Both the position numbers and the translations under genes were made by a program. A stretch of 64,000 nucleotides of DNA from Siculibacillus lacustris (lineage in GTDB: Bacteria; Pseudomonadota; Alphaproteobacteria; Rhizobiales; Ancalomicrobiaceae). The stretch spans positions 1-64,000 of the forward strand of contig NZ_SJFN01000024.1 in the NCBI RefSeq assembly GCF_004328075.1. Reading direction: 5' to 3'. Shown one piece after another: positions 5,549 to 62,403 of this stretch (within the stretch, counting starts at the first letter, position 1; each line of letters starts with the position of its first letter). The notes beneath the pieces were generated by a model, which was not told where the DNA came from, searched no databases, and saw only the letters and a list, made by a program, of their open reading frames with translations.

Positions 5549-7078
5549 TCAGGCGGCCTGCGACAGCGGGTCGGCGCCGCGGGCGCCGAGGGCTTCGGCG
5601 AGGTGGATGCGGCCGACGGTCGGGCGGTCGTCGAGATCGGCCAGCGTGCGGGCGACCTTGAGGACGCGGTGATAGGCGCGGGCCGACAGGCGCATGGCGG
5701 TGGCCGCGGCGGCGAGCAGATCGGCACCGGCGGCATCGGGCCGTGCCACCTCCTCGACCAGGGCCGCCGGCATGTCGGCGTTGGTGCGCACCCCGTCGAG
5801 GCCGAGGGCGGCGAAGCGGCGGCGCTGGACCAGTCGAGCGCGCGCCACCCGGGCGGCGACCTCGGCCGAGCCTTCGGTCGGCGGCGGCAGGATCAGATCC
5901 TGGGCGGAGACGGCGGCGACCTCGATGCGCAGATCGATGCGGTCGAGCAGCGGGCCGGACAGGCGGGCCTGATATTCGTCGGCGCAGCGGCGGCCGCGGC
6001 GACAGACGAAGCCGGGCGTGCCGGCATGGCCGCAGCGACAGGGGTTCATCGCGGCGATCAGCTGGATGCGGGCCGGGTAGCTGACCCGATGGTTGGCGCG
6101 GGCGATCACCACCTCGCCGCTCTCCAGCGGCTGGCGCAGCGAATCGAGCACCTGGGGCACGAATTCCGGCAGCTCGTCGAGGAACAGCACGCCATTGTGG
6201 GCGAGCGAGACCTCGCCGGGGCGGGCGCGCAGGCCGCCGCCGACCAGCGCCGCCATCGAGGCGGAATGGTGCGGGCTGCGGAACGGCCGCCGATCGGACA
6301 GCTTGCCGTCGGCGAGCTCGCCGGCGATCGAGGCGATCATCGAGACTTCGAGCAGTTCGCGCGGCTCGAGCGGCGGCAGGATCGACGGCAGGCGGGCGGC
6401 GAGCATCGACTTGCCGGAGCCGGGCGGGCCGACCATCAGGAGGTGGTGGCCGCCGGCGGCGGCGATCTCCAGAGCGCGCTTGGCGGTCTCCTGGCCCTTG
6501 ACGTCGCGCAGATCGGGCAGGCCGGCGACCGCCTCGCGGATCTTCGGGGTCGGCCGGGCGACGACCTGGGTGCCCTTGAAGTGGTTGGCGAGCTGGACGA
6601 GGCTGCGGCCGGCGACGATGGCGAGGTCGGGGCTGGCCCAGGCGGCCTCCGAGCCGGAATCGGCGGGGCAGATCAGGCCCTTGTCGAGGGCGGCGGCGGC
6701 GACCGCGGCGGGCAGCACGCCGGCGACCGCGGCGATGGTGCCGTCGAGCGACAATTCGCCGAGCGCGACATAGTCGAGCAACTGGTCGCCGGGCATGGCG
6801 CCGATCGCCGCGAGGATGGCGAGCGCGATCGGCAGATCGTAGTGGCTGCCCTCCTTGGGCAGGTCGGCCGGCGCCAGATTGACGGTGATCCGCCGCTGCG
6901 GCAGGGCGAGGCCGGCGGCGAACAGCGCGGCGCGGATCCGCTCGCGGCTCTCGCCGACCGTCTTGTCGGGCAGGCCGACCACCGCGAAGACCGGGTTGCC
7001 GGCGGTGATCTGCACCTGCACGTCGACGGGGACCGCTTCGATCCCCTGAAACGCGACCGTCGTCACCCGCGCCACCAT
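5549..7078 (-). CDS. comM: YifB/ComM family Mg-chelatase-like AAA+ ATPase
   Basis: A 509-residue ComM/YifB protein. In naturally transformable bacteria ComM is a hexameric helicase that drives branch migration during integration of incoming DNA. The order seen is an N-terminal ChlI-like (Lon-protease fold) domain, AAA+ with Walker A GPPGSGKS (217-224), Walker B GVLFLDELPEF, a zinc-ribbon-like insertion with four Cys (NPCRCGH ... CRRGRRC), and a C-terminal helical lid. ATG 7078 is chosen over the upstream in-frame codon at 7111 because GAGG sits six bases before it. A promoter-like sequence and repeated TTGCA motifs precede it. Many non-competent bacteria keep this gene, so it does not show competence. 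Confidence 0.93.
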   Translation of the reverse strand: MVARVTTVAFQGIEAVPVDVQVQITAGNPVFAVVGLPDKTVGESRERIRAALFAAGLALPQRRITVNLAPADLPKEGSHYDLPIALAILAAIGAMPGDQLLDYVALGELSLDGTIAAVAGVLPAAVAAAALDKGLICPADSGSEAAWASPDLAIVAGRSLVQLANHFKGTQVVARPTPKIREAVAGLPDLRDVKGQETAKRALEIAAAGGHHLLMVGPPGSGKSMLAARLPSILPPLEPRELLEVSMIASIAGELADGKLSDRRPFRSPHHSASMAALVGGGLRARPGEVSLAHNGVLFLDELPEFVPQVLDSLRQPLESGEVVIARANHRVSYPARIQLIAAMNPCRCGHAGTPGFVCRRGRRCADEYQARLSGPLLDRIDLRIEVAAVSAQDLILPPPTEGSAEVAARVARARLVQRRRFAALGLDGVRTNADMPAALVEEVARPDAAGADLLAAAATAMRLSARAYHRVLKVARTLADLDDRPTVGRIHLAEALGARGADPLSQAA

Positions 7079-7106
7079 GTTCGCCTCGATCGTCGATGGA
7101 CGCTCG

Positions 7107-7135
7107 ATCATGGAACATTAAGGGAACAATTGCAA
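7107..7135 (-). promoter_or_regulatory. Candidate sigma-70 promoter of comM
   Basis: On the minus strand, TTGCAA (7135-7130) is followed after exactly 17 bases by CATGAT (7112-7107). Four of six bases match each consensus hexamer. It lies about 30 bases upstream of the comM ATG. Judged by eye only. Confidence 0.45.
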
Positions 7136-8147: not shown

Positions 8148-8176
8148 GGTCCCCTCCCCGGTCGGTCGAGCCTGCA

Positions 8177-21383: not shown

Positions 21384-22090
21384 GCCGGCCTCCCGCCACG
21401 CGGGCGACGCAAGCGGACATAGATCGCCCCGGCGCCACCATGGGCGAGATGGGCCTCCTCGAAGCCGATCACCAGATCGCGGACGTCGCTGTCTGCGAGC
21501 CAATGGGGCACCGCACGGCGCAACACGCCGCGGTCCCAGGGCGATTCGCCCGGGCCGCCGCGGCCCTTGCCGGTAATCACCAGGACGATGCGGGCACCGG
21601 CGCCCCGCGCCCGCACGAGGAAGTGGCGCAGCGCCGAATGGGCGGCCTCCTGGGTCATGCCGTGGAGATCGAGGCGGGCGTCGATCGCCACCAGACCGCG
21701 GGCGAGGCGGCGGCGGGTGCGGTCGTCGAGGGCGGCGAGCGACGGCGGCGCGGCCACCGGCGGCGCCAGACCTTCCGGCGTCGGGGTGTGTTTCACGTGA
21801 ATCGTCGCCGCCGCGCGCGCGGGTTCCCGCCGGGTCGGGCCGGTCGGCCGGACGATCCGCGGCACGCGCTTTTCCTTCGGCGGCTCGGGCGCGGCCGGCG
21901 GCGGCGGTACCGCGGCTTCGACGACCGGCGGCGATTCGGGCGCGGGATGGCTCTCCACGGGCGGGCGGCGCGAACGGCGGTGGGGCCGGGCATCGCCGAG
22001 CGGATCGATGGTCTCGGTGACCTTGTCCCACAGGCGGCGTTCGTCGTCGCCGAGGGCGCGGGGACGGCGGCGGCGAAAGGTCGGGATCAT
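21380..22090 (-). CDS. Smr domain protein
   Basis: A 236-residue protein with a disordered Pro/Arg-rich N-terminal half and a C-terminal Smr domain. The domain motifs are IDARLDLHGMTQEAAHSAL (LDLHG) and VLVITGKGRGG (TGKG). Smr domains are endonucleases or RNA/DNA-nicking modules that occur at the C-terminus of MutS2 and as stand-alone proteins; the substrate of this short type is unknown. It overlaps mltA by ATGA (22087-22090) and xre by ATGA. A 14/16 parS-like site lies in its coding sequence (21789-21804), in the linker region. Confidence 0.9.
   Translation of the reverse strand: MIPTFRRRRPRALGDDERRLWDKVTETIDPLGDARPHRRSRRPPVESHPAPESPPVVEAAVPPPPAAPEPPKEKRVPRIVRPTGPTRREPARAAATIHVKHTPTPEGLAPPVAAPPSLAALDDRTRRRLARGLVAIDARLDLHGMTQEAAHSALRHFLVRARGAGARIVLVITGKGRGGPGESPWDRGVLRRAVPHWLADSDVRDLVIGFEEAHLAHGGAGAIYVRLRRPRGGRPA
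21789..21804. other. parS-like site (14/16) within smr
   Basis: TGTTTCACGTGAATCG matches the ParB-binding consensus TGTTTCACGTGAAACA at 14 of 16 positions, differing only in the right arm. It is about 17 kb from parB. It lies in the low-complexity linker part of smr, where the sequence is under weak protein-level constraint. Confidence 0.6.
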
Positions 22091-27634: not shown

Positions 27635-28462
27635 TCAGCCGTGCCGCCGGGTGCGCAGCAGGGCGATGATGGCGGCGGCGGTCTCTTCGATCGAGCGGCG
27701 GCTGACGTCGATCACCGGCCATTCGTTGTCGGTACAGATCCGCCGCATCAGAGTCAGCTCGGCGGCGATCGAGGCGCGATCGACATAGGCGTGGTCGAAG
27801 CTCTTGGAGCCCAGCGTCAGGATGCGGTTCTCGCGAATATGGGCGATGCGGTCGGGGCTGGCGACCAGTCCGACGACCAGCGGTCGCGACACCGAGAACA
27901 GGGTCGGCGGCGGCGGAATGTCGAGGACGATCGGCACATTCGCGACCTTGAGGCCGCGATTGGCGAGATAGATCGAGGTCGGGGTCTTGGAGGTTCGCGA
28001 AATGCCGAGGACGACGATGTCGGCTTCGTCGAGATCGGCGGGCAACTGGCCGTCGTCATGGGCCATGGTGAAGTTCATCGCCTCGATTCGCTTGAAGTAG
28101 TCGGCATCGAGGGCGTGCTGGGCGCCGGCCCGGTGGGTCTGGGTGAGGTTCAGGAACGACTGGAAGATGTCGAGCACCGGCGCCAGCACCGAGACGCAAG
28201 GCAGGCCCTGCTCGAGGCAGAAACGCTCGAGCCGGGTGGCGAGGTCGGCCGAGACCAGGGTGTAGAGGACGATGCCGGGGAACTGCTCGATCTCGACCAG
28301 CGCCTTGTCGAGGTGGCGGTCGGTGCGCACCAGCGGGTGGACGTGTTCGATCGGTTCGATCGCTTCGTACTGGGCCGCGGCGGCGCGGGCGACGGTGATC
28401 AGAGTCTCGCCGGTCGAATCCGAAATCAGATGGAGATGGAAGAAGTTGGACGAGGTCTTCAC
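27635..28462 (-). CDS. PPSR: pyruvate, water/phosphate dikinase regulatory protein
   Basis: A 275-residue bifunctional ADP-dependent kinase/Pi-dependent pyrophosphorylase (DUF299 family) that switches pyruvate phosphate dikinase or PEP synthetase on and off by threonine phosphorylation. The start [15 protein letters not shown] is characteristic. The P-loop-like segment [21 protein letters not shown] and [22 protein letters not shown] follow. GTG 28462 is chosen because family members begin a few residues before FHLHL; the longer start at 28498 adds 12 unconserved residues. It lies beside the origin region, as in many alphaproteobacteria (PPSR/hemE flank). Confidence 0.93.
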
Positions 28463-28668
28463 AGGTTTGTCCCCAGCACCCGGACCGGACCGGAACAACT
28501 CCTCGATTCCGGCGGCCGAGGGTCACTCTCTCCCGTTCGACCAAAACGATCAACAGATCCGATCGTCCGGGGCCGAACGGGCCGGTCCGCGAGGGGTCGG
28601 TGGAGAAGATCGGCGGCGCGGGCGTCATCGACTCCTCGTCCACAGCCCGCGGTATCCGAGGGATCTCG

Positions 28669-28704
28669 TTAAGGGCTTGGTAACCTTCGTTAACGAATGG
28701 TTAA
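28669..28704. promoter_or_regulatory. Two CtrA-type boxes
   Basis: TTAA-N7-GTAA at 28669-28683 and a perfect TTAA-N7-TTAA at 28690-28704, the published consensus for the cell-cycle regulator CtrA. They are 21 bp apart in the same orientation, i.e. two helical turns. They lie in the PPSR/hemE gap. Confidence 0.65.
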
Positions 28705-28760
28705 CGAGGCGGGCGGTGGACAACCCGTCGAATCGGCGTCGACACGACCTCGAGAGCGGG

Positions 28761-28776
28761 TGTTTCACGTGAGTCA
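28761..28776. other. parS-like site (14/16) in the origin region
   Basis: TGTTTCACGTGAGTCA matches the parS consensus at 14 of 16 positions; the whole left arm and the CACGTG core are intact. It is 57 bp from the second CtrA box. It is noncoding, so protein coding does not explain it. Confidence 0.7.
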
Positions 28777-28866
28777 TTGTGGACGGCGCTTGATCCCGGT
28801 AATCCACCGACTAAGAGTCATAGAAATTCTTCCTTCGAAGAAGATCTGTAAGAGGGAGGGCTGTGG

Positions 28867-29919
28867 GTGAGTTCGGTGGGTGAGCGCAAGGTGCTGGCGG
28901 TGTTGGCGGGCGAACGGATGTTCCCGCCGCCGATCTGGATGATGCGGCAGGCTGGGCGCTATCTCCCGGAGTATCGGGCGACCCGGGCTCAGGCCGGCGG
29001 ATTCCTCGATCTGTGCTATTCGCCGAAGCTCGCGACCGAGGTCACGCTGCAGCCGATCCGGCGCTACGGCTTCGATGCGGCGATCCTGTTCTCCGACATC
29101 CTGGTGGTGCCCGACGCGCTCGGTCGTAAAGTGGCTTTCGTCGAAGGCGAAGGGCCACGGCTCGAGCCGCTCGATCTCTCGGAGGTCGGTCGACTCGATC
29201 TCGACGGCATCGCCCGGCGCCTGGGACCGGTCTACGAGGCGATCGAACTGATCCGGGCGGGGTTGCCCTACGAGACCACCCTGCTCGGCTTCTGCGGGGC
29301 GCCCTGGACCGTGGCGACCTATATGATCGCCGGACGGGGAACCCCCGATCAGGCGCCGGCCCGCCGCGCCGCTCTGACCGACCCGGAGGGCTTCGCGCAG
29401 TTGATCGATGTGCTGGTCGCCGCCTCGATCGCGTATCTCTCGGCGCAGGTTTCGGCCGGCGTCGATGCGGTGCAGATCTTCGACACCTGGGCCGGGGTCC
29501 TCGATCCGTCCGAACTGCGGCGCTGGGTGATCGACCCGACGGCGCGGATCGTCGCCGGGCTCCGGGCGCAGCATCCCGGTATCCGGGTGATCGGCTTTCC
29601 GAAGGGCGTGCAGGCGGGTCTGGTCGATTTCGTCACATCCACCGGAGTCGATGCGGTCGGTCTCGATTGGACGATTCCCTCGGCCTTCGTTCGCGCCGAG
29701 GTCCAGCCGCGAGTTGCGGTCCAGGGCAATCTCGATCCGATGCGGGTGGTGATCGGCGGTCGGGCGCTCGACGAGGGTGTCGACCGGGTGCTCGCCGAAC
29801 TCGGTGACGGCCGGCTGATCTTCAACCTCGGTCACGGCATCACGCCCGACGCCGATCCGGCCCATGTGGCGCGGATGGTCGAGCGGGTGCGCAGCGCCGG
29901 GACGAGGGCGACCGCATGA
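28867..29919 (+). CDS. hemE: Uroporphyrinogen decarboxylase
   Basis: A 350-residue enzyme converting uroporphyrinogen III to coproporphyrinogen III in haem synthesis. Motifs are [20 protein letters not shown] (the two conserved Arg), [16 protein letters not shown] (Asp in the active site), [35 protein letters not shown] and QGNLDPMRV. The start is GTG 28867 after GAGGG; a second GTG three codons on is possible. The hemJ ATG overlaps its stop (ATGA). It flanks the likely replication origin, as in Caulobacter. Confidence 0.97.
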
Positions 29920-35570: not shown

Positions 35571-35586
35571 TGTTTCACGTGAAACA
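35571..35586. other. parS: Perfect parS site
   Basis: TGTTTCACGTGAAACA, a perfect 16/16 match to the chromosomal parS consensus that ParB binds. It lies in the mnmE-mnmG gap, 2.7 kb from parA. Its length makes a chance match in 64 kb very unlikely. Confidence 0.93.
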
Positions 35587-37570: not shown

Positions 37571-38254
37571 ATGTCGTCGCACCGCCGACGATCGATTCGA
37601 AAGCGATCCGACGTGACGACCGACGACCTCCGCTGCGTGAGCGATATTTACCCTGTTTCACGTGAAACGGCCGAGCGCCTGACGATCTATGTCGACCTCG
37701 TCGTGAAGTGGCAGAAGAGCCAGAATCTGGTGGCGCCGGGAACCTTGCCGCAGATCTGGCGGCGCCATGTCGCCGATTCGGTCCAGGTGGCGGCGATCCG
37801 GCCGGAGGCGACGCGCTGGCTCGATCTCGGATCGGGAGCGGGTTTTCCCGGCCTGGTGACGGCGATCGTCAATGCCGACCGGCCGGGTGCGGTGGTTCAT
37901 CTGGTCGAGAGCAACCACGGCAAAGCGGCCTTCCTGCGCACCGTGGCGCGGGAGACCGGCGTCGCAGCGATCGTTCATACGGTGCGGATCGAGGAGTTCG
38001 TCGCCGATTTCGCCGAGCCGATCGAGGCGATTTCCGCCCGAGCGCTGGCGCCATTGGTGCGCTTGATCCCGATGGTGGCGCCGTTGGTTGGCCGCGGCGC
38101 CGTCGCGGTTTTCCACAAGGGTCAAGATTTTGCGTCCGAGCTGGCGGATGCCACTGCATCTTGGGACCTGAATCTGGTAGAACATCCCAGTCGGATCGAA
38201 CCGGGAAGCCGTCTGGTGGAAATCCGCGGGATCGCGCCGCGCGCCCCGACCTGA
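37571..38254 (+). CDS. rsmG: 16S rRNA (guanine527-N7)-methyltransferase RsmG (GidB)
   Basis: A 227-residue SAM methyltransferase that modifies G527 of 16S rRNA. Motif I is WLDLGSGAGFPGLVTAI, then LVESNHGKAAFLRTVARETG and ISARALAPLVRLIPMVAP. The N-terminal segment PVSRETAERLTIYVDLVVKWQKSQNLVAP is typical of alphaproteobacterial RsmG. A near-perfect parS site encodes residues 29-33 (VSRET). The start is uncertain: ATG 37571, or GTG 37613 which gives 213 residues. The stop shares a base with an upstream ATG of parA, so parA follows directly. Confidence 0.95.
   Translation: MSSHRRRSIRKRSDVTTDDLRCVSDIYPVSRETAERLTIYVDLVVKWQKSQNLVAPGTLPQIWRRHVADSVQVAAIRPEATRWLDLGSGAGFPGLVTAIVNADRPGAVVHLVESNHGKAAFLRTVARETGVAAIVHTVRIEEFVADFAEPIEAISARALAPLVRLIPMVAPLVGRGAVAVFHKGQDFASELADATASWDLNLVEHPSRIEPGSRLVEIRGIAPRAPT
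37654..37669. other. parS: Near-perfect parS site (15/16) inside rsmG
   Basis: TGTTTCACGTGAAACG matches the parS consensus at 15 of 16 positions, only the last base differing. It encodes VSRET of rsmG, about 0.6 kb from parA. Confidence 0.88.
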
Positions 38255-38268
38255 TGGAGCGTCGTTCA

Positions 38269-39096
38269 ATGGCCTCGCTACCGAAATTGCCTCGCGTCCT
38301 GTCGCTCGCCAACCAGAAGGGCGGCGTTGGCAAGACGACGACCGCCATCAACCTCGGCACGGCGCTGGCGGCGATCGGCGAAGAGGTGCTGATCGTCGAT
38401 CTCGATCCGCAGGGCAATGCCTCGACCGGCCTCGGCATCGACCGCCGGTCGCGCAGGCTCTCGACCTATGACGTACTGGTCGGCGACAGCGGCCTCGACG
38501 AGGTGCTGATCGAAACCGCCGTGCCGCGCCTGTGGGTGGCGCCGTCGACCCTCGATCTGCTCGGGGTCGAGCTGGAGATCGCCGCGACCGCCGACCGCGC
38601 CTTCCGGCTGCGCAAGGCGCTGCAGCACTATGGCGAGATCGCCGGGCCCGATCGGCCGCAGTTCACCTATGTGCTCGTCGATTGCCCGCCGTCGCTCAAT
38701 CTCCTGACGATCAACGCGATGAGCGCGTCGCATTCGGTGCTGGTGCCGCTGCAGTGCGAGTTCTTCGCGCTGGAGGGCCTGTCGCAGCTTCTGTCGACGG
38801 TCGAGCAGGTCAAGGGGGCGCTGAACCCGGAACTGTCGATCCACGGCATCGTGCTGACCATGTACGACGCGCGCAACAATCTCTCGGGCCAGGTGGTCGC
38901 CGACGTGCGCCAGCACATGGGCGACACGGTCTACGACACGATCATCCCGCGAAATGTCCGCGTGTCGGAGGCGCCGTCCTACGGCAAGCCGGTGCTGCTC
39001 TATGATCTCAAGTCGGCGGGCAGCCAGGCCTATCTCCGTCTCGCTTCCGAAATCATCCAGCGCGAACGGCGCCTGCGGGCAGCCGCGGCGGCGTGA
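38269..39096 (+). CDS. parA: Chromosome-partitioning ATPase ParA (Soj)
   Basis: A 275-residue Walker-type ATPase that forms an ATP-dependent DNA-bound gradient pulling ParB-parS complexes apart. The deviant Walker A motif is NQKGGVGKTTTAINLGTALA, followed by LIVDLDPQGNASTGLG and YVLVDCPPSLNLLTINAM. ATG 38269 is preferred: GGAG sits eight bases before it. An upstream ATG at 38254 overlaps the rsmG stop by one base and would add five residues. The operon order rsmG-parA-parB is conserved near alphaproteobacterial origins. Confidence 0.98.
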   Translation: MASLPKLPRVLSLANQKGGVGKTTTAINLGTALAAIGEEVLIVDLDPQGNASTGLGIDRRSRRLSTYDVLVGDSGLDEVLIETAVPRLWVAPSTLDLLGVELEIAATADRAFRLRKALQHYGEIAGPDRPQFTYVLVDCPPSLNLLTINAMSASHSVLVPLQCEFFALEGLSQLLSTVEQVKGALNPELSIHGIVLTMYDARNNLSGQVVADVRQHMGDTVYDTIIPRNVRVSEAPSYGKPVLLYDLKSAGSQAYLRLASEIIQRERRLRAAAAA

Positions 39097-39176
39097 CGCG
39101 CAGCCCGGGCGACCGGGCGACAACCAATTCCGATCGCCGCTCGCGAAGGCCGATCATCGAAGTGTGGGAGGCGAAG

Positions 39177-40046
39177 GTGGAAGAACGCAGGCGTCTGGGA
39201 CGAGGACTGGCGGCTCTGCTCGGCGACGTGGCCGAGCCGGAGCTGGTGGGCGCCGATCGCTCGGGTGGGCAGAAGCGCGTGCCGATCGAGCTGATCCACC
39301 CCAATCCGCGCAATCCGCGGCGGCAGTTCGGCGAGCAGGATCTCGCCGATCTCGCCCAGTCGATCCGCGAGAAGGGCGTGGTTCAGCCGATCCTGGTGCG
39401 ACCGGCCAAGAACGCCCCTAACCACTATGAGATCATCGCGGGCGAGCGGCGCTGGCGGGCCTCGCAGCGGGCCGGGCAGCACGAGATCCCGGTGATCGTC
39501 CAGGACGTCTCCGACAAGGAGGCGCTGGAGCTGGCGATCATCGAGAACGTCCAGCGTTCCGACCTCAATCCGATCGAAGAGGCCTTCGGCTACGACCAGC
39601 TGATCGCCGAATTCGGTTACACCCAGCAGGACCTGGGGCAGGTGATCGGCAAGAGCCGGTCCCATGTCGCCAACACGCTGCGCCTGTTGAAGCTGCCGGA
39701 GGCTGTCAAGGAGCACCTGCGCGAGGGTCGGCTGACCGCCGGCCATGCTCGCGCGCTGGTCGGCACCGAGGATCCGGAAGGCTTGGCGGCGACGATCGTC
39801 GACAAAGGCCTGACGGTGCGCGACGCCGAGGCGCTCGCCGCGGCGCCGAAGGCCAGCGAGCCGGCCAAGCCGGCGCGCGGCAAGGTCAAGGACGCCGATA
39901 CGATGGCGCTGGAGAAGTCGCTGTCCGACATTCTCGGGCTGGTGGCGACGATCGAGCATCGCCCCGACGGATCGGGTGAATTGCGGCTGCGCTATCGCAC
40001 CCTGGAACAGCTCGACGACCTGTGCCGGCGCCTGCAGCGCGGCTGA
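39177..40046 (+). CDS. parB: Chromosome-partitioning protein ParB (Spo0J)
   Basis: A 289-residue CTP-dependent DNA clamp that loads at parS and spreads along the chromosome. The start GTG 39177, with GGGAGG upstream, gives the standard N-terminus MEERRRLGRGLAALLGD. The CTP-binding part contains NPRNPRRQFGEQDLADLAQSIREKGVVQPILVR and GERRWRAS. The helix-turn-helix TQQDLGQVIGKSRSHVANTLRLL and AGHARAL follow, and a C-terminal dimerisation domain ends the protein. A longer frame from 39093 overlapping the parA stop lacks family similarity. Its binding sites are the four parS-type sites in the window. Confidence 0.97.
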   Translation: MEERRRLGRGLAALLGDVAEPELVGADRSGGQKRVPIELIHPNPRNPRRQFGEQDLADLAQSIREKGVVQPILVRPAKNAPNHYEIIAGERRWRASQRAGQHEIPVIVQDVSDKEALELAIIENVQRSDLNPIEEAFGYDQLIAEFGYTQQDLGQVIGKSRSHVANTLRLLKLPEAVKEHLREGRLTAGHARALVGTEDPEGLAATIVDKGLTVRDAEALAAAPKASEPAKPARGKVKDADTMALEKSLSDILGLVATIEHRPDGSGELRLRYRTLEQLDDLCRRLQRG

Positions 40047-40164: not shown

Positions 40165-41202
40165 TCAGCGTCGCGCGGCGGCGCGGGCGACCCGGGCGAG
40201 GGTGACGACCGCGTCGGCGATCACCGCGTCGGCGAGCAGCGGCATGCGGCGAGAGCGCAGCATCGCCTCGTCGAGGAGATCGAGGGCGCGGCCGAGGCGT
40301 TCGCGAGTCCACAGGCCGAGTTGGCGGACGATCTCGGGGCGGCGGCGGAAGAAGATCGGCGGCTGCAGAGCGCCGACCACGTCGGAGGCCGAACGGCCGG
40401 GGCCGACCTCGGCGCGGATGCGCTGCAACAGCTGGAAATGGCGGATCAGCATGGTACCGGCGACCGAGGCGTTGGTGCCGGCGGCGGCGAGCTTGCGCAG
40501 CACCATGTCGGCGGCCGCGAGGTCGCCGCCGGCCGCGGCGTCGAGCAATTCGTCGACGGCGAAGGCCGAGGCGTCGCCGACCACGGCAGTGACGTCGGCG
40601 AGGCCGATCCGTGCGCGGCCGTGGGCATAGAGGCAGAGCTTGCGGATCTCGCCGCGCGAGGCGAGGCGGTCGGCGCCGAGATGGGCCTCGAGCACCTCGC
40701 GGGCGTCGCGATCGATGGTCATGCGGAACTCGGCGAGCTCGCGGTCGATCAGTCGCGACAGCTCCTCGGCGCCGTCGGAATAGCAGGGCAGGGCGATGGC
40801 GTTCGGATGGTCCTCGACGCGCTTGCGCAGGCCCGTGCCCTTCTTGAGGTCGCCGGCTTCGATCACCACCAGGCTGGCGGTATCGGGGCGGTCGAGCAGG
40901 GGCTGGACGGCGGAAAGGATATTGCGGCTGCCGGCATCGCGGATCCAGACGATGCGGCGGGCGCCGAACAGCGACACGGTCGAGGCCTCGTCGATCAGCC
41001 GGGAGGGATCGTCCACCAGGGTGGCGCCGTCGAGGCGGACGAGGGAGAAGGGATCGTCGCTGCGGCCGCCGGCGGCGGCGACCAATTGGACCCCGCGTTC
41101 GGCGACGAGACCGTCGTCGGGGCCGTAGATCAGCACCAGACTGGCCCGATCCCCGGGGCGGCGCAGGAAGCCGTCGATCTCCGAACCCTTCAGCGCGACC
41201 AT
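40165..41202 (-). CDS. holA: DNA polymerase III delta subunit
   Basis: A 345-residue clamp-loader subunit that opens the sliding clamp. Family traits are MVALKGSEIDGFL, the LVLIYGPDDGLVAERGVQLVAAA segment with a degenerate P-loop, DDPFSLVRLDG, the LVVIEAGDLKKGTGLRKRVED region and the C-terminal RHFQLLQRIRAEVGPG with FRRRPEIVRQLGLWTRERLGRALDLLDEAM. It is convergent with parB, and its stop is followed by lptE's downstream side. The holA-lptE-leuS order is conserved in Hyphomicrobiales. Confidence 0.95.
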   Translation of the reverse strand: MVALKGSEIDGFLRRPGDRASLVLIYGPDDGLVAERGVQLVAAAGGRSDDPFSLVRLDGATLVDDPSRLIDEASTVSLFGARRIVWIRDAGSRNILSAVQPLLDRPDTASLVVIEAGDLKKGTGLRKRVEDHPNAIALPCYSDGAEELSRLIDRELAEFRMTIDRDAREVLEAHLGADRLASRGEIRKLCLYAHGRARIGLADVTAVVGDASAFAVDELLDAAAGGDLAAADMVLRKLAAAGTNASVAGTMLIRHFQLLQRIRAEVGPGRSASDVVGALQPPIFFRRRPEIVRQLGLWTRERLGRALDLLDEAMLRSRRMPLLADAVIADAVVTLARVARAAARR

Positions 41203-61353: not shown

Positions 61354-62403
61354 GTGACCGAACCCGAAACCCCCGCCGCTGACGATCCCAAGACGATCGA
61401 CCAGATCGCCGCCGTCCTCGGTCTGTCGCGCACCACCGTCCGCGCGGTGGTCGGTGGGCAGGCCGAACGCTACCGGATCAAGGCCGAGACCTGCGCCCGG
61501 GTCGAGGCCTATGTCGCCGAACACGGCGTGGCGGTGAACCACACCGCCCGCAGCCTCAAGCTCAAGCGCAGCGAGGCGGTGGGCCTGGTGGTCCCCGATC
61601 TCGCCAATGCCTTCTTCGCGCGGCTGACCGCCGAACTCGAGGAGCGCTGCAGCGGCCAGCGTCTGGTGTTGCTGACGGCGTCGTCGCAGGAGGATCCCGA
61701 CCGCGAGGCGCGGGCGATCGAAGGGCTGACGGCACGCGGCGTCGACGGGCTGGTGATCGCCTCGTGCCGGCCGGCCGATGCCTTCCGGCCGTTGCGCCGG
61801 CGCGGCGGCTGCGCGGTGGTGATGGTCGACCGGGCCTTTCCCGGAACGCCGTTTCCGGCGGTGGTCGGCGACAACGAACAGGCGGCGCGGCGGCTGACCG
61901 CCGAATTGCTGCGGGTCGGCGACGGGCGGGTCGATTTTCTCCACGCCTCGGCCGGGCTGCCGAGCATCCAGGCCCGACTGGAGGGCTTCGCCGCGGCCCA
62001 TGCGAGCGCCGGCATCGGCAATCTCGCCGGGCGTCTGCACCGCATCGAGGTCGACGACGTTGCAGCCGCGGCGCGCGCCATGGCCGGACTGATCACTGCG
62101 CGCGGGCGGGTGCCGGAGGTGTTCATGTGCTCGTCGCTGCTGGTGCTCGAAGGGGCGCTGCAGGCGATCGTCGCCTTCGCCGGGCGCCTGCCCAAGGGGG
62201 TGGTGATCGGCACCTTCGACCACCACCCGCTGCTCGACGTGGTGCCCAACCGCATCCTGTCGGTGCGCCAGGACGAACGCGGCATCGCCGAACGGGCGTT
62301 CCGCTGCCTGATCGAGCAGATGGAGGGCGCGCCGGCCCTGCCCGAACGCCATGTCGTGCCGGGCTGGCTGACCGATCACCGGGTCGAGGGCCCGGCCCGC
62401 TGA
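61354..62403 (+). CDS. LacI-family regulator, FruR/Cra-like
   Basis: A 349-residue regulator with an N-terminal helix-turn-helix (TIDQIAAVLGLSRTTVRAVV), a hinge helix (ARSLKL) and a sugar-binding domain. The hinge and first strand are VGLVVPDLANAFFARLTAELEERCSGQRLVLLTASSQEDPDREARAIEGLTARGVDGLVIASC, close to the FruR/Cra type. The HTH is slightly atypical (TVRAVV for the usual TVSRVL). The start is GTG 61354 with GAGGCG upstream. It follows the isomerase by 148 bp and is convergent with the second LacI gene. It may regulate the kinase-isomerase genes. Confidence 0.9.
   Translation: MTEPETPAADDPKTIDQIAAVLGLSRTTVRAVVGGQAERYRIKAETCARVEAYVAEHGVAVNHTARSLKLKRSEAVGLVVPDLANAFFARLTAELEERCSGQRLVLLTASSQEDPDREARAIEGLTARGVDGLVIASCRPADAFRPLRRRGGCAVVMVDRAFPGTPFPAVVGDNEQAARRLTAELLRVGDGRVDFLHASAGLPSIQARLEGFAAAHASAGIGNLAGRLHRIEVDDVAAAARAMAGLITARGRVPEVFMCSSLLVLEGALQAIVAFAGRLPKGVVIGTFDHHPLLDVVPNRILSVRQDERGIAERAFRCLIEQMEGAPALPERHVVPGWLTDHRVEGPAR

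Follow-up and report, generated by a model that had tools for sequence, protein, structure and literature searches.

The replication origins published for Caulobacter and Rickettsia are flanked by the gene pair hemE/COG1806 (PMC1914354). The Caulobacter crescentus origin, Cori, measures about 400 bp and holds a perfect TTAA-N7-TTAA box among its five CtrA boxes, weak DnaA boxes, the W-box core TCCCCA (PMC4285127) and an AT-richer stretch (PMC4285127, PMC1914354); parAB and parS are nearby. The Rickettsia prowazekii origin has the same boundaries and also contains CtrA sites (PMC1914354). Origins between hemE and PPSR are likewise described in the Rhizobiaceae and Brucella (S. meliloti, B. abortus); the S. 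meliloti origin was reported without a CtrA motif (PMC4433202), and Brucella CtrA does not bind the Brucella origin (PMC2877005).

The window analyzed here is the first 64 kb of a 75.7-kb contig (C17) from the 5.02-Mb draft genome, in 99 contigs, of a Hyphomicrobiales bacterium, probably of the family Ancalomicrobiaceae. It contains a 404-bp intergenic region of oriC type (28463-28866), hereafter the gap, which is very probably the chromosomal origin of this bacterium, given the motifs found in it and the placement of KOPS and parS in relatives. Its left boundary is PPSR, the pyruvate,phosphate dikinase/PEP synthase regulator (COG1806, DUF299; 27635-28462, minus strand; PF03618 E=5e-89, NF003742 E=2e-98), which starts with GTG at 28462. 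Its right boundary is hemE, uroporphyrinogen decarboxylase (28867-29919, plus strand; PF01208 E=4e-110, TIGR01464 E=2e-115), which starts with GTG at 28867. Start codons and profile matches agree with the initial annotation, which had placed a probable origin at these coordinates between these two genes. The neighbors it listed, rho, mnmE, mnmG, rsmG, parA (38278-39096, plus strand; PF13614 E=1e-54), parB (39093-40046, plus strand; PF02195, PF17762, PF23552; TIGR00180) and holA, are all present by Pfam, the last with a weak match (PF06144 E=8e-5). A point against the assignment is that the dnaA gene is on another contig (C1), although a dnaA gene far from the origin is common in the alphaproteobacteria.

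The origin itself is of a known kind, the Caulobacter/Rickettsia type. The gap shares with Cori every feature named above except the number of CtrA boxes, of which it has two, and it differs further in having neither a perfect G-box (TGATCCACA) nor a consensus IHF site and in carrying a parS-like site inside the origin. It resembles the R. prowazekii origin in its hemE/COG1806 boundaries and CtrA sites, although its host is a free-living organism with a high-GC genome. With the Rhizobiaceae and Brucella origins it shares the gene pair, a similar length and a DnaA box offset of about 178 from PPSR, whereas those origins are without CtrA boxes (1/59 of the clade has one) and many have perfect TTATNCACA boxes.

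Alphaproteobacterial origins of this type have been recognized by adjacency to hemE, COG1806 or both, an AT content above the genome average, CtrA sites of the form TTAA-N7-TTAA, DnaA boxes TTATNCACA, IHF sites and the lack of a rival gap with such sites elsewhere (PMC1914354). The first three are found in the gap. As had been claimed from the letters alone, it is AT-richer than its surroundings, with 60% GC against about 70% (39.6% against about 30% AT), and an AT content this high is reached by only 4% of 400-bp stretches in the window. Its AT-richest stretch, a candidate unwinding element at 28812-28853, reaches 67% AT over 30 bp and adjoins hemE. The IHF consensus WATCAN5WTR has no exact match in the gap and two matches with one mismatch (P=0.08); hence, assignment to the oriC class rests on position and on the remaining features. 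This consensus is loose, and its site counts differ among accepted hemE/COG1806 origins. A Caulobacter-type IHF/CtrA dual site was also considered and rejected: the CtrA box TTAACGAATGGTTAAC has a similar layout, but the Cori IHF site is unmatched at up to three mismatches.

Both CtrA-type boxes of the initial annotation are present, one with a single mismatch to TTAA-N7-TTAA (TTAAGGGCTTGGTAA, 28669-28683) and one perfect (TTAACGAATGGTTAA, 28690-28704), where 0.05 matches are expected in dinucleotide shuffles (P<0.001). At the aligned position of the perfect box, 12 of the 14 family members have a match with 0-1 mismatch. The scan of the 5.02-Mb draft for rival gaps covered perfect CtrA boxes, of which there are only 25, against 10 for a control pattern.

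The gap has no DnaA box matching TTATNCACA with 0-1 mismatch. At two mismatches, however, TTATCCACA has five matches where 0.49 are expected in dinucleotide shuffles (P=0.001), and it is in this form that the degenerate DnaA boxes proposed earlier exist. Several of them are kept in register among family members. The first element, TTGTCCCCA (28467-28475, plus strand), contains TCCCCA, and TCCCCA(G) is kept in the family. The DnaA-like box TCGTCCACA (28636-28644, plus strand) lies at offset 177-180 from PPSR; relatives have one-mismatch DnaA boxes at the same offset, and many Rhizobiaceae origins have DnaA boxes there as well (about 178). Motif matching and the family alignment give two more, TTGTCCACC (28715-28723, minus strand), 10 bp past the CtrA box, and the conserved TAATCCACC (28800-28808, plus strand). 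The analogy to Caulobacter drawn in the initial annotation is apt, but the overlap of CtrA and DnaA sites that it invoked is not evident in the gap, where about 24 and 10 bp separate the CtrA boxes from the nearest DnaA-like sites.

The gap is common to 14 family members, across which its elements of CtrA, DnaA-like, promoter-like and AT-rich type keep their register. Counted from PPSR, the order of blocks is TCCCCAG, GATCAACAG, the DnaA-like TCCACAG at offset 177-180, the CtrA box region, GTTTCACGTGA[GA]TC, TTGTGG-N17-TAATCC followed by CAC, and the AT-rich stretch. The GATCAACAG block (28548-28556, plus strand) contains TCAACAG in 14/14 family members; the whole block is kept in most of these 14 origins and occurs in several other families.

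The motif TTGTGG-N17-TAATCC (28777-28805, plus strand), kept in the family, points toward hemE and is by its sequence a plausible sigma-70-type promoter for that gene, so part of the conservation may serve transcription. Within it, TGTGGA and TAATCCAC double as DnaA-like half sites. Given that this element stands in the most conserved block, the gap might be only a divergent, CtrA-regulated promoter region of PPSR and hemE, with the true origin elsewhere within about 30 kb, e.g., closer to parAB or beyond the left end of the window. Against this stand the several DnaA-like boxes in register, one of them at the offset of Rhizobiaceae origins, an AT content above that of 96% of window stretches, and a position orthologous to that of published origins. 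We consider such a promoter-only region improbable, and the polarity of the chromosome, considered below, also bears on it.

Position on the chromosome was assessed with the KOPS motif GGGNAGGG in relatives, the first being the near-complete G006, whose 5,002,800-bp contig was sampled as 40 stretches of 20 kb. KOPS polarity was 52 plus and 8 minus in the right half and 4 plus and 43 minus in the left half (P=7.5e-17), flipping at the hemE locus and about opposite to it. The fitted switches lie at 4.131-4.145 and 1.620-1.733 Mb, with hemE at 4.172 Mb and its antipode at 1.671 Mb. The best likelihood falls 27-41 kb to the left of hemE and beats the hemE position by about 3 log units, which counts against the gap; KOPS in G006 resolves the switch no more closely than to some tens of kb, which is compatible with an origin outside the gap. 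In G007, however, the KOPS switch falls at 3.096-3.106 Mb and hemE at 3.1067 Mb, at most 11 kb apart, and GC skew is negative in 9/9 20-kb samples on the left and turns positive at the KOPS switch, which argues for an origin at or close to the gap. Farther right of hemE the G007 signal is mixed. The strand polarity of a bacterial origin is therefore found in both relatives. On the contig itself, only seven KOPS occur, and all but one agree with an origin at the gap: minus at 8152, 15290 and 23215, plus at 40786, 57451 and 72414, and the one exception, minus at 62336.

GC skew had been put forward in the initial annotation as a check of the origin, and on this point the outcome was unfavorable, as well as being a point for a promoter-only region: no sign change of the skew occurs in the contig at 28.5 kb, both flanks of the gap being positive. 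At four-fold sites, the mean of both gene strands is 0.04 at 20-28.4 kb and 0.24 at 28.9-40 kb, a step within the same sign. Given the genome is a 99-contig draft, its own skew is unreadable end to end. GC skew was dropped as the main test, since its signal is too weak and both codon-position bias and rearrangement confound it; it was also insufficient in several alphaproteobacteria of the Rickettsiales origin study (PMC1914354). The genes to the left of about 21 kb stand in a rearranged order relative to G006, with the gene at 5549-7111 inverted, and this rearrangement likely contributes to the missing flip. Skew over positions 1-21000 of the window is positive, the reverse of the sign that the left side of an origin should show.

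The rearranged order left of about 21 kb, together with the 99-contig state of the draft, could also mean that contig C17 fuses unrelated pieces at the gap. As G006 has the same gene order over the interval of about 22-54 kb that contains the gap, and the gap recurs in 14 family members, such an assembly artefact is exceedingly improbable.

At up to two mismatches, a motif search of the whole 5.02-Mb draft finds only four parS sites, at 21.8, 28.8, 35.6 and 37.7 kb of C17, all at most 9 kb from the gap. They are a site with two mismatches and an embedded GAATC (21789-21804), the site inside the gap (28761-28776), a perfect site (35571-35586) and one with a single mismatch (37654-37669). Likewise, parS lies at most about 20 kb from hemE in 16/17 relatives. 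In another relative, G048, hemE is displaced from the origin by 1.9 Mb, to 7.09 Mb, while PPSR (0.957 Mb) and parS (0.961 Mb) remain together (loci L164, L178). The KOPS switch of G048, at 0.93-0.96 Mb, stays with PPSR and parS and not with hemE, which indicates that hemE is a useful but not essential neighbor of the origin.

This clustering of parS, and a KOPS switch that tracks parS and PPSR in G048, would also be expected of a centromere-like region at which no initiation takes place, parS and KOPS marking segregation and terminus polarity. However, par lies close to the origin as a rule in the alphaproteobacteria (PMC8116508), and a step in GC skew, which is a signal of replication, is likewise seen at hemE in G007 and near hemE in G006. 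A purely centromere-like locus is accordingly very improbable, and the gap is retained as the very probable origin.

The proposal of an origin beside hemE is therefore supported by the gene pair, the parS clustering, the KOPS flip in two relatives and the G048 exception. The analysis shows the KOPS position in the two relatives, the clustered parS sites, the conserved elements and the presence of genes for DnaA, a CtrA orthologue (83% to a query used as a probe only) and a RAMA-domain CcrM-like methylase. All binding to the gap and firing from it we infer. This assignment would establish where replication begins in an alphaproteobacterial family that has been little studied.

In the mechanism we propose, low-affinity boxes distributed along the gap (at 28467, 28636, 28715 and 28778-28808) would be the assembly sites of DnaA, which would then open the AT-rich stretch adjoining hemE, beside which the promoter-like element toward hemE stands. 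Phosphorylated CtrA would occupy the box pair at 28669-28704, between the two flanking DnaA-like boxes, and by analogy to Caulobacter it would restrain initiation in the non-replicating cell type. ParB bound at the parS sites around the origin would segregate it.

The initial annotation had also noted a parS-like site in the gap. This is TGTTTCACGTGAGTCA (28761-28776), which exceeds chance in dinucleotide shuffles and is not a consensus parS: it matches the centromere sites (TGTTTCACGTGAAACA) in 14/16 bases, including the CACGTG core, but differs in one arm and in lying inside the origin. Given that this arm is changed to GAGTC or GAATC, a CcrM site (GANTC, here at 28771-28775) falls within the parS-like site. 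A parS-like site is present at the equal offset in 12/14 family members, against 0/82 other origins, and the altered arm is GAGTC in nine of the twelve and GAATC in three, both GANTC. Such a GANTC-bearing parS-like site, kept inside the origin across a family, is unusual and modestly new at the level of sequence.

The same annotation counted at least five GANTC sites in the gap. The count of five is right, but it is not above chance for this single sequence (P=0.24 against dinucleotide shuffles), and the GANTC richness of the sequence alone was rejected as origin evidence. Over the whole family set GANTC is enriched, with 68 sites against about 42 expected.

Among 15 family genomes, GTTTCACGTGANTC occurs 38 times, with no control hits, and its sites are near hemE wherever the two share a contig. 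The motif is widespread in Hyphomicrobiales (209/397 genomes). In the same 150 genomes there are about 160 GTTTCACGTGANTC-type sites against 18 with the two other bases at that position (about 9-fold), these being counts of sites related by descent and not independent. The preference for GANTC-bearing parS may reflect tolerance by ParB, selection for GANTC, or both. Earlier work had already measured GANTC sites at the parS locus of Caulobacter (PMC5172544); a literature search for the GTTTCACGTGAATC variant found no paper naming it. The parS/GANTC element in the origin offers a concrete lead on how segregation, methylation and initiation may be coupled.

A speculative extension, which we regard as unlikely, is that the family origin holds a ParB site with one arm serving as a CcrM methylation site, full or half methylation setting the access of ParB, DnaA or both beside the unwinding element, so that methylation of a single composite element would couple initiation with segregation. 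If so, the preference for GAATC parS variants across Hyphomicrobiales would be part of the same methylation link.

In a HemE+PPSR tree built from 96 loci, 21/37 origins outside the Rhizobiaceae/Phyllobacteriaceae/Brucella clade have a perfect CtrA box, against 1/59 inside it. This clade difference in sequence is modestly new, and it fits the S. meliloti (PMC4433202) and Brucella (PMC2877005) reports. Presence and absence of the box require at least 12 changes on the tree, which indicates a clade trend and not a single event. The layout of Caulobacter, a perfect CtrA box between DnaA-like boxes, is thus found in much of Hyphomicrobiales outside the clade of Sinorhizobium, Agrobacterium and Brucella, the usual models, whose origins are without it. 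When direct control of initiation by CtrA was lost or gained becomes testable. We also considered whether CtrA boxes and strong DnaA boxes trade off against each other, as the raw counts suggest: 19 origins have only a CtrA box, 38 only a strong DnaA box, and three both. This was rejected in favor of a clade difference only, since independent tree pairs are unsupportive (median p=1). One locus (L062), a hemE-PPSR origin of Hyphomicrobiales, belongs to a record with the title Bacillus subtilis SK6B4, which points to a mislabelled or contaminated assembly.
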